Positions 17,618 through 19,525 of a stretch of DNA of 41,734 bases are shown one piece after another (position 1 is the first letter of the stretch; every line of letters begins with the position of its first letter). The notes under the pieces are model-generated. The model worked only from the letters and a program-made list of their open reading frames with translations. It was not told the origin of the DNA and made no database searches. This stretch comes from Clostridia bacterium. Lineage in GTDB: Bacteria > Bacillota > Clostridia > Christensenellales > Borkfalkiaceae. Location of the stretch: the NCBI GenBank assembly GCA_017415505.1, contig JAFQGG010000010.1:1-41734 (forward strand), given 5' to 3'. Both the position numbers and the translations under genes were made by a program.

Positions 17618-17905
17618 TCATTTCCAATGCCTTCGAATTAGGCGCAACATATTATCCCTGCCCACGGGGTTTGCCGTGTGCAAGGCGATCGGATAAAAGG
17701 TTTGCCGCTCGCACAGCCAATCGAGTAGCTTTATCCCGTCGCCCCCGTCGGGGAAATAATCCCCCAAATCGTGGTCGCAATCAATGATCTCAACGCCTAC
17801 CCCCTCCGCTTCCGCTTGCTCCACGAGGGCAATCGCCTCGTTGACGCTATGCGCCAACACGAATCCCGCGGGCGCGGGACGGATATCGTCCAGCCAAATT
17901 TTCAT
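17618..17905 (-). CDS. cyclic-phosphate processing receiver-like (cREC) protein
   Basis: 95-residue small receiver-fold protein. MKIWLDDIRPAPAGF supplies the acidic pair at the end of strand 1; IIDCDHDLGDY is the strand-3 aspartate region; PIALHTANPVGRDNM is the strand-4/5 region. This matches the cREC family proposed to act with cyclic-phosphate RNA or nucleotide processing. ATG 17905 has GAGGAG upstream; the frame continues to 18028 without a ribosome site. Promoter TTGACA-18-TATAAT at 17957-17986. No end-processing partner gene adjoins it. Confidence 0.8.
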   Translation of the reverse strand: MKIWLDDIRPAPAGFVLAHSVNEAIALVEQAEAEGVGVEIIDCDHDLGDYFPDGGDGIKLLDWLCERQTFYPIALHTANPVGRDNMLRLIRRHWK

Positions 17906-17956
17906 AAGTTTCTCCTCTACGGCGAACCCGCCTTTGCGCTTTTTGATTACGCCATT

Positions 17957-17986
17957 ATTATAACCCATTCTTTTTGGGAATGTCAA
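17957..17986 (-). promoter_or_regulatory. SigA promoter of the cREC gene
   Basis: TTGACA (17981-17986), 18 bp, TATAAT (17957-17962). Confidence 0.85.
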
Positions 17987-18003
17987 GAGCTTTTTAGGGC
18001 GAA

Positions 18004-18037
18004 CGAAAAAAATTACTCCCGCGATCAATCACGGGAG
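18004..18037 (-). terminator. terminator of the candidate ncRNA
   Basis: On the minus strand ACTCCCGTGA-TTGA-TCGCGGGAGT (one G-T pair), followed by TAATTTTTTT. It ends the transcript begun at about 18822. Confidence 0.9.
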
Positions 18038-18822
18038 TTTTCATTTTTCATTGTATTCAATTTTAGTAGAGCGTTTCTTATTCTTTACTATCCGTGTCTT
18101 TTTGAACTCAATTTCACCGTGCGGTCTATCCCGCGTTTTCTTTACGGATATTATGCTTTACGCTCCTCGATAAATTCGTTCATTGGTCTATACCTCCGTG
18201 TTCCCTTCTTTGTTAAAGTACCGCTTAAAGCTTTTTTTCATGGCTTTTTTACCTCCTTTAACTTTATTCTGTTTTCCCGATATTTCTATCGGCTACCCCA
18301 AACGGTTGGAGTATCGTTGGTAGTCATTGCGACTACACCCCCTTTTTCGAACTTTTTCTTTTCTCTCCTTTGTTTTGCTCCCGTTGCCCTTCTTTACGAA
18401 CAACGGCTAACTCAGATCGTCGGAGTGTCCGCGGTAATCATCTCGACTACTTCTCCTTATTTTTATTTCCCCCTTTTTCCGCTCGGCGGTAGCGCGTTCG
18501 AGTGCCCCCTTTGCGATTCGTCAAACGCTTCGGTGTTCTCTGCCTTATCAATTCCTCCTCCGTCACTCAGACCTATCGGACGCCTACCGAAGAACCGTCG
18601 TCCTTCCATTTGCTCCGCCTTCGGATTCGGTGTTATTGATAAACCTCTTCGTCTTGGTAAGGAATCATCGCTTTACATACCCTCCTTTACCGTTTTTCTT
18701 TCGGCGTATCCCTACGCCCCTTTGCCGACTTCCTAATTCGGCGCCTTTATTCGTGCATTGGTGTGCTCCGTATTTTTTATTTGAAAGGTTGAAACATTTT
18801 TTGTTGTTTCTTATCTCTTTGT
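18004..18822 (-). ncRNA. candidate large (~0.8 kb) structured non-coding RNA
   Basis: A promoter-to-terminator unit with no gene of normal size. Two copies of a three-hairpin module are present. Module 1: GTAGTC-GAGAT-GATTAC (18434-18450), ACTC..GAGT (18410-18426), CCGTTG..CAACGG (18381-18406). Module 2: GTAGTC-GCAAT-GACTAC (18320-18336), ACTCCAA-CCGT-TTGGGGT (18295-18312), CCGATA-GAAA-TATCGG (18277-18292). Sequences differ but pairing is kept. More stems: 18724-18742, 18703-18718 (GGCGTA-GGGA-TACGCC), 18479-18489, 18121-18134 within an ATCCGT/ACGGAT closing stem (18090-18149). Size and ornateness recall ROOL, GOLLD or OLE, but I cannot assign a family. Mini-ORFs inside are an alternative reading. 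Confidence 0.7.
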
Positions 18823-18828
18823 ACTTCT

Positions 18829-18856
18829 ATTATAGCAAATTTGAAACATTTGTCAA
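18829..18856 (-). promoter_or_regulatory. SigA promoter of the candidate ncRNA
   Basis: TTGACA (18851-18856), 16 bp, TATAAT (18829-18834). The motif AAATGTTTCAA occurs both between the hexamers and again at about 18787-18799 downstream of the start, which may be a duplicated operator. Confidence 0.88.
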
Positions 18857-18944: not shown

Positions 18945-19469
18945 TTAGAAGTCGTCGTCTTCGTCTTTTTTCTTGCGTTTTCTCTTGGGCGTTTCGTCCT
19001 CGTCGTAGAAATCGTCGTCATCGTCGTCGTCCTCGTCGTCGAGGTTGGCGTCGTAGTCGTCCGCGGAAACGTACTCGAAATCGTCTTCGTCTTCCTCGAA
19101 CTCCTCTTCCTCTTCTTCCTCTTCCTCGTCGTCGAACTCGGAATCGGGAATCCCGAGGTCGAGATCGTCGTCCTCGTCGTCGAGGTAGGTTCTCCAAGAC
19201 GCGTCCTCTTTATCCTCGTCCTCGTCCAAGCCGTCCTCTTCGTACTCGTTCTTCTTCTTACATTCCTCGCACATCTTTTCCCCAAAAACCATGTAGTTCT
19301 CACCGCAAATGGGGCAAAGCTCCGTTTCTTCAATGGCTTCTTCCGCCTCAAAATCGTCCGTGAACGTCTTTTCACCGCTCAGCTCTTTCACGCAAACCTC
19401 GCAATATTCCTGCTCGTCAACGTCGATAAAGTTTAACTCGCATCTGGGGCAAATTACGTATCTCGCCAT
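18945..19469 (-). CDS. double zinc-ribbon protein with a long acidic tail
   Basis: 174 residues. Two four-cysteine zinc knuckles are visible: CPRCELNFIDVDEQEYCEVC and CPICGENYMVFGEKMCEEC. From about residue 75 to the end the protein is almost only Asp and Glu, ending in a basic patch (PKRKRKKK) and DEDDDF. The tail should be disordered and could mimic nucleic acid or bind basic proteins. ATG 19469 has GGGAGGAG directly upstream; an extension to 19508 has none. Own promoter (19526-19554) and terminator. Function unknown. Confidence 0.8.
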   Translation of the reverse strand: MARYVICPRCELNFIDVDEQEYCEVCVKELSGEKTFTDDFEAEEAIEETELCPICGENYMVFGEKMCEECKKKNEYEEDGLDEDEDKEDASWRTYLDDEDDDLDLGIPDSEFDDEEEEEEEEEFEEDEDDFEYVSADDYDANLDDEDDDDDDDFYDEDETPKRKRKKKDEDDDF

Positions 19470-19525
19470 ACACTCCTCCCTCGTTTTTCCGACCGTTCCG
19501 TCGGACACATATTTTATTTTGCTAT

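Follow-up and report, generated by a model that had tools for sequence, protein, structure and literature searches.

What kind of gene fills some 0.8 kb of a clostridial contig that carries a consensus promoter, a terminator and nothing resembling an ordinary coding sequence? The stretch lies on the minus strand of the window, by which we mean the whole 41,734-nt length of DNA analysed here (contig JAFQGG010000010.1), and an earlier note had taken it for a large non-coding RNA, a member or relative of the ROOL, GOLLD or OLE classes or a new one. On reading the sequence, the promoter was found as described, with an extended -10 TG in addition, and an intrinsic terminator was located at the other end (Table 1). 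It also holds that no normal gene lies between them. A 321-aa frame is open on the plus strand (17771-18736), antisense to the RNA and to the next gene; it gave no Pfam match at E<=0.001 and is probably spurious. The minimum free energy of the 822-nt RNA was -215.2, while its shuffled versions averaged -174.9 (z -6.66, from 20 shuffles only).

Two three-hairpin modules noticed earlier were confirmed, with their arms paired as described. Their duplication was not reported by a repeat finder, which at the settings used gave no inverted repeat pairs and, as its only output, a single 19-nt repeat spanning two Shine-Dalgarno (SD) sites. Both modules are copies of a single DTPT-ORF unit, and each contains a micro-ORF that the earlier note overlooked. 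From 5' to 3' the RNA is ordered as P1, ORF1, P2, P3, ORF2 with its SD, an insert in long forms, ORF3 with its SD, P4 to P7, a conserved 3' motif and the terminator. The window's own 3' motif deviates from the usual form; an SSU match, sought with regard to pairing of this motif with 16S rRNA, was absent in six of six genomes.

Table 1. Features of the predicted RNA and its promoter, in window coordinates
Feature	Position	Strand	Sequence or detail	Basis
Promoter	18829..18856	-	TTGACA-16-TATAAT, A-tracts upstream	read from sequence
Promoter elements	TTGACA 18856-18851; TATAAT 18834-18829; TG 18837-18836	-	TG is the extended -10	read from sequence
Predicted RNA	18006..18822	-	starts about 7 nt past the -10, ends at the terminator	read from sequence
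P1 inner hairpin	18791..18810	-	GAAACA/TGTTTC	read; helix in RNAalifold consensus, some both-side pair changes
SD-like site of ORF1	18766..18769	-	GGAG, 4 nt only	under SD filter
ORF1	18747..18758	-	MHE-stop	frame-0 stop test
P2 hairpin	18724..18742	-	GCCGA/TCGGC, +17 from ORF1 AUG	read from sequence
P3 hairpin	18703..18718	-	GGCGTA-GGGA-TACGCC	both-side changes
SD of ORF2	18681..18687	-	AAGGAGG	SD-ORF scan
ORF2	18633..18668	-	MIPYQDEEVYQ-stop	SD-ORF scan
Three-hairpin module 1	18381..18450	-	GTAGTC/GATTAC, ACTC/GAGT, CCGTTG/CAACGG	read from sequence
ORF within module 1	18412..18441	-	MITADTPTI-stop	SD-ORF scan
Three-hairpin module 2	18277..18336	-	GTAGTC/GACTAC, ACTCC/GGGGT, CCGATA-GAAA-TATCGG	read from sequence
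ORF within module 2	18286..18327	-	MTTNDTPTVWGSR-stop; weak SD GGGGGTG	failed SD filter; read from sequence
SD of RYF ORF	18251..18258	-	AAGGAGGT	SD-ORF scan
RYF ORF	18188..18241	-	MKKSFKRYFNKEGNTEV-stop	SD-ORF scan, codon counts
SD of ORF3	18192..18197	-	GGAGGT	SD-ORF scan
ORF3	18151..18183	-	MNEFIEERKA-stop	frame-0 closing test
P4 5' arm, inside ORF3	18160..18165	-	GAGCGT	arm-swap test, start position
P5 around P6 and P7	18089..18150	-	TATCCGT/ACGGATA around GCGG/CCGC and TGAA/TTCA	alignment by eye, no statistics
P4 3' arm	18069..18074	-	ACGCTC	arm-swap test
Conserved 3' motif	18054..18064	-	here AAAATTGAATA, usually ACAACTGAATA	alignment
Intrinsic terminator	18006..18037	-		read from sequence

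The RNA was searched by blastn, as the earlier note had proposed, in 101 genomes, of which 46 matched: the window's own, 44 of the 56 others of its genus, and one of another family (G061) with a 31-nt match that we left uncounted as a homologue. These homologues keep the promoter and the helices, with pairs changed on both sides. Matches fell mostly at both ends of the RNA, the middle being variable or absent, and three of the 12 same-genus genomes missed by blastn (G001, G031, G045) were found to carry the RNA by model search and reading. From start to 3' motif the homologues measure 292-828 nt (median 584). TTGACA and TGNTATAAT (TG-N-TATAAT) occur in 53 of 53 homologues listed, a count that is not independent because the loci were partly found through the promoter region; some loci of the genus labelled g47 have TTGACT in place of TTGACA. 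L055 was dropped from all counts, and L056 and L009 from the promoter and SD-ORF counts.

Beyond the genus, R1, which models the 5' domain, was run on 396 genomes of the order and matched 13, of which one is taken as false (G309, locus L070, which sits in apparent coding sequence). A promoter-plus-leader profile (R2) matched 211 of 251 genomes of the family at E<=0.01, many of these being promoter-only matches, which were not counted as members. Twenty R2 loci were fetched, of which the 18 showing the promoter pattern (all but L116 and L123) were read; they include members in the genera labelled g1, g43, g45, g47 and g4. Three g46 loci have an ORF2 and an ORF3 of the window RNA's kind, and among further R2 promoter loci L127, L129 and L131 are members, the promoters of ordinary genes account for L128, L130 and L132, and L126 is ambiguous. 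A search of 297 genomes of the order gave 19 matches at E<=1e-7, every one in the family, and 398 genomes of the phylum gave no match beyond the window's own. Phages yielded only four weak blastn matches of 33-43 nt (E 0.2-0.8) and no homologue, plasmids no blastn match, and viral contigs no match in an exact-pattern scan; the same kind of scan over genome contigs returned a single contig (G012:C41), the named record being a Clostridia MAG of roe deer cecal origin. We provisionally regard the class as restricted to the family, since the filters used on large sets lose weak matches. Three g47 genomes (G373, G466, G477) have two differing class-like loci each (L107/L108, L106/L122, L109/L124).

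Kinship with ROOL, GOLLD or OLE was not borne out. The locus had no Rfam match at gathering score, and at E<=10 the six weak matches, all far under their gathering scores, included none of the three. The broader proposal, a large structured RNA and possibly a new class, has fared better: promoter, terminator and helices are conserved and Rfam has no gathering-score match, and the RNA appears to represent a previously undescribed, highly structured bacterial class. In 16 homologous loci the sole Rfam match at E<=1 was to a tRNA in L122 (1-50, minus strand), truncated by the end of the stretch and lying beyond the pseudoknot copies. Neither Rfam nor ARAGORN finds a tmRNA at the locus and a 161-bit tmRNA lies on contig C40, while the genome's only RNase P RNA match (RF00010) is on contig C28; the locus is therefore not a divergent copy of either.

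The window RNA resembles OLE, ROOL and GOLLD in being large and highly structured; it differs in having no Rfam match, in a class length that varies nearly threefold and in its serial micro-ORFs, which are not known from those classes. The three are described as large, highly structured bacterial RNAs (PMC12286853). tmRNA likewise joins a structured RNA to a short reading frame, but here the tmRNA is separate. SgrS, RNAIII and SR1 are dual-function sRNAs, in which the RNA also encodes a short peptide. Both features, a structured RNA and a conserved short ORF, are found here at the level of sequence, and ORFs under selection in sRNAs are reported to be common (PMC5521070). The present class differs from such sRNAs in having at least three micro-ORFs, down to two codons, and a set distance from AUG to structure. 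In the lambda bar minigenes the start codon stands nearly directly before the stop, as it does in ORF1. A plant AUG-stop uORF (NIP5;1) is reported to stall ribosomes (PMC11915504). Unlike both, the minigenes of the window RNA are serial and lie in one bacterial RNA without a main ORF. A literature search found, in the parts of the sources available, no bacterial RNA with a structure-tied series of micro-ORFs.

The RNA class and its helices are shown here. In the RNAalifold consensus, eight of the 14 pairs predicted in P1 and P3 are changed on both sides. On an unedited sequence-only alignment of the 3' domain (A1, without L041 and L054) RNAalifold gave no pairs, which was thought due to misaligned arms of P4, and we therefore used an arm-swap test for this helix, which joins codons of ORF3 to the stretch preceding the 3' motif. 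(Alignment A2 was made without L009, L042, L044, L046 and L056; from A5 L030, L041 and L071 were removed beforehand, and 17 of the remaining 50 were not put in.) A helix of at least 6 bp is formed by 42 of 45 cognate pairs of arms. When arms were swapped between genomes the mean longest helix fell from 7.5 to 5.4 bp, and the observed value was reached by none of 2000 permutations in g1 (45 loci), none of 2000 in g45 (25 loci) and three of 2000 in g43 (13 loci), results that are inflated because the rows are related. Ten of the 56 loci of g45 and g43, being without the promoter pattern, were dropped from the frame tests described below, and L143, L152 and L159 are without ORF3; the P4 tests also left out L148, L162, L163, L168 and L173, in which the 3' motif is absent. 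In g47 an H-type pseudoknot occurs in two or three copies in five of six loci examined, 12 in all, and was not found in the sixth (L106). Pairing holds in 96.7% of cells across these copies, and three of ten pairs are changed on both sides; the pair-counting measures were reached by 13 of 500 shuffles and the covariation score by none of 500.

Six micro-ORFs were read in the window RNA, four of which pass the SD filter, and 53 RNAs contain 201 SD-led closed ORFs, where dinucleotide shuffles average 46.1. ORF1 takes the form M-x-(x)-stop, ORF2 usually has 8-19 codons and ORF3 8-14; a few longer ones occur (for instance ORF2 of L051, L053 and L154 and, by eye, ORF3 of L111). The insert of long forms holds further SD-led ORFs, commonly with DTPT, followed by an SD-led RYFNKE ORF.

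The positions of starts and stops are conserved. In 45 of 46 rows frame 0 has a stop within three codons of the ORF1 start, the sole exception being L041, where ORF1 is missing; in the other frames this is so in four and three rows. Frame 0 of ORF3 closes 8-13 codons past its AUG in 45 of 45 rows, closure at 7-13 codons being seen for the other frames in 14 and 11 of the 45. The ORFs were located by motif and the rows are related, two of the 46 ORF1 rows coming from one genome, so that these counts are inflated and are not independent events. In g45 (31 loci, 28 with a readable promoter) frame 0 was closed in 27 of 28 cases for ORF1 (other frames 4 and 3), 25 of 26 for ORF2 (6 and 2) and 26 of 26 for ORF3 (3 and 4); the profile used to collect these loci extends only as far as codon 2 of ORF1, which selects for the AUG and not for the stop. 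In g43, where 18 of 25 loci were readable, the figures are 17 of 17 for ORF3 (3 and 4) and 14 of 17 for ORF2 (5 and 4), and the ORF1 pattern was met in two of 18, one of which is truly ORF2. Three other g43 loci (L115, L158, L169) have by eye MKYK, MTYT and MKDK, each followed by a stop, in a different start context. The second codon is NAC (His, Asn, Asp or Tyr) in 38 of 45 ORF1 and 45 of 45 ORF3 copies among the loci of the genus. NAC codons are those read by queuosine tRNAs; the bias may be an RNA motif or a clue to sensing.

The distance from AUG to structure is likewise regular. Measured from the ORF3 AUG, the best P4 helix begins at +17 to +19 in all 45 rows of g1 (search range +1 to +36), at +17 to +21 in 25 of 25 g45 loci and at +18 to +20 in 11 of 13 g43 loci (both searched from +13). 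For ORF1, 39 of 45 rows of the genus have a stem beginning +17 to +20 from the start codon (searched from +10 to +26); in the window itself the automatic search chose another stem at +15, not P2. In g47, ten of the 12 pseudoknots stand at exactly +16, after NTG-NNN-NNN-stop-NNN. Covarying helices thus start mostly 16-20 nt past an AUG. In toeprinting practice a ribosome that has AUG in its P site shows its leading edge at about +15 to +16, and the distances seen here would be roughly those of an initiating ribosome's leading edge.

This spacing, the stops kept in one frame and the lodging of ORF3 in an arm of P4 suggest that visits by ribosomes are part of how the RNA works. The strong consensus promoter would give rise to a transcript that measures about 290-830 nt from its start to the 3' motif and carries at least three units, each of a start codon (usually SD-led), a micro-ORF and then a structure: ORF1, ORF2, further inserted ORFs in many genomes, and ORF3. 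Because the structure lies mostly 16-20 nt past the AUG at ORF1, ORF3 and the g47 pseudoknots, a ribosome that is initiating would abut it, and by translating on to the stop would unfold it. ORF3 shares sequence with the 5' arm of P4, and the 3' arm of this helix immediately precedes the 3' motif and terminator; P4 would open while ribosomes load and move, and close when they are scarce or stalled. Acting in trans, the RNA could report the status of translation through its 3' domain, or hold ribosomes. Its transcription and translation, like this switch, the action in trans and the target, we infer from sequence. To the general reading, a new family-restricted class of large structured RNA that has the ribosome among its working parts and acts in trans, we would give a chance approaching an even one. 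The narrower form of it, a serial ribosome trap or a sensor in trans of the state of translation, built of repeated AUG-minigene-stop-structure units, is tentative and leans to the unlikely. Were the reading right, bacteria would have a new way to sense or buffer translation, the class would offer a clean way to test minigenes for a role as regulatory parts, and annotation based on ORFs and on non-coding RNAs could both miss this kind of gene.

The main rival is that the RNA is a polycistronic mRNA for functional micropeptides, those of ORF2 and ORF3, whose structure only tunes translation. In the RYFNK block Tyr is retained in 40 of 45 rows, Lys in 42 of 45, Phe in 35 of 45 and Arg in 34 of 44, with the synonymous exchanges TAC/TAT, AAA/AAG, TTT/TTC and AGG/CGG; rows for the exchanges were chosen by peptide pattern and are thus biased, the retention counts being unbiased. 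Peptide conservation through synonymous change is thereby suggested for the RYF codons, and neither for ORF1 nor across genera. ORF2 is often basic and aromatic and peptide themes recur in other genera (RYF..K in the window's genus, YF in ORF2 of g43, MYxF in ORF3), and the peptides may therefore matter. Against this, ORF1 almost always encodes just 2-5 amino acids, the sequence of ORF2 changes from genus to genus, P4 covaries within ORF3, and the compact ORF2, often a single MIPY....RYFNKE frame, has its MIPY/MIPS and RYF parts in separate ORFs in long forms. We consider this rival unlikely.

With start and stop positions conserved and the RYF codons varying largely synonymously, the RNA looks both structured and translated, and the earlier label of a non-coding RNA is half right at best: the structure is there, and a purely non-coding nature seems not to fit. 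The note had also held that clear synonymous bias would mark the stretch as protein-coding. The whole RYFNKE block has no third-position bias (67, 33 and 45 substitutions at positions 1, 2 and 3).

A purely structural RNA, in which the SD-AUG-stop patterns would be motifs resembling ORFs by chance, is distinctly improbable. It would suit the strong helices and the near-invariant CCRATG around the ORF1 and ORF3 starts, but ORF1 stops at codon 3 or 4 using all three of TAA, TAG and TGA with the other frames mostly open, GTG or TTG replaces ATG at starts in a few loci, and the frame test repeats in g45, where for ORF1 the AUG and not the stop was preselected. Highly improbable is an attenuator in cis, by which ORF3 and P4 would govern whether transcription runs past the terminator into the next gene: a helix that overlaps a short ORF directly ahead of a terminator is the classic arrangement, that of the leader peptides trpL and ermCL, and ORF3 shares it, but no same-strand gene cluster lies downstream in more than 4 of 47 loci (mostly 1.5-kb flanks), so that a widely shared downstream gene and an evident cis target are both lacking, and the window's next gene (17618-17905, minus strand) has by reading its own TTGACA/TATAAT-like promoter.

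Returning to the reading in which ribosome visits are a working part, we infer an independent gene acting in trans, because of this scatter of downstream genes and because mreB, within the fetched flank of 34 of 49 loci of the genus, is absent from the window's flank. The gene 3' of the RNA matches a cyclic-phosphate processing receiver domain (cREC_REC), and the gene preceding it (18945-19508, minus strand) has a zinc-ribbon-like part (DZR_2, under cut-off) and a very acidic tail. By eye, the gene before the RNA in L011 and L059 resembles RqcH/NFACT, a ribosome quality-control protein, and in L074 (g45) the RNA seemingly lies between genes for a GerAC-type germination protein and a SpoIIE-type protein. 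Elsewhere in the window the minus strand carries two Gut-1 RNAs (RF01706; 38347-38427 and 38766-38850), spaced by about 420 nt.
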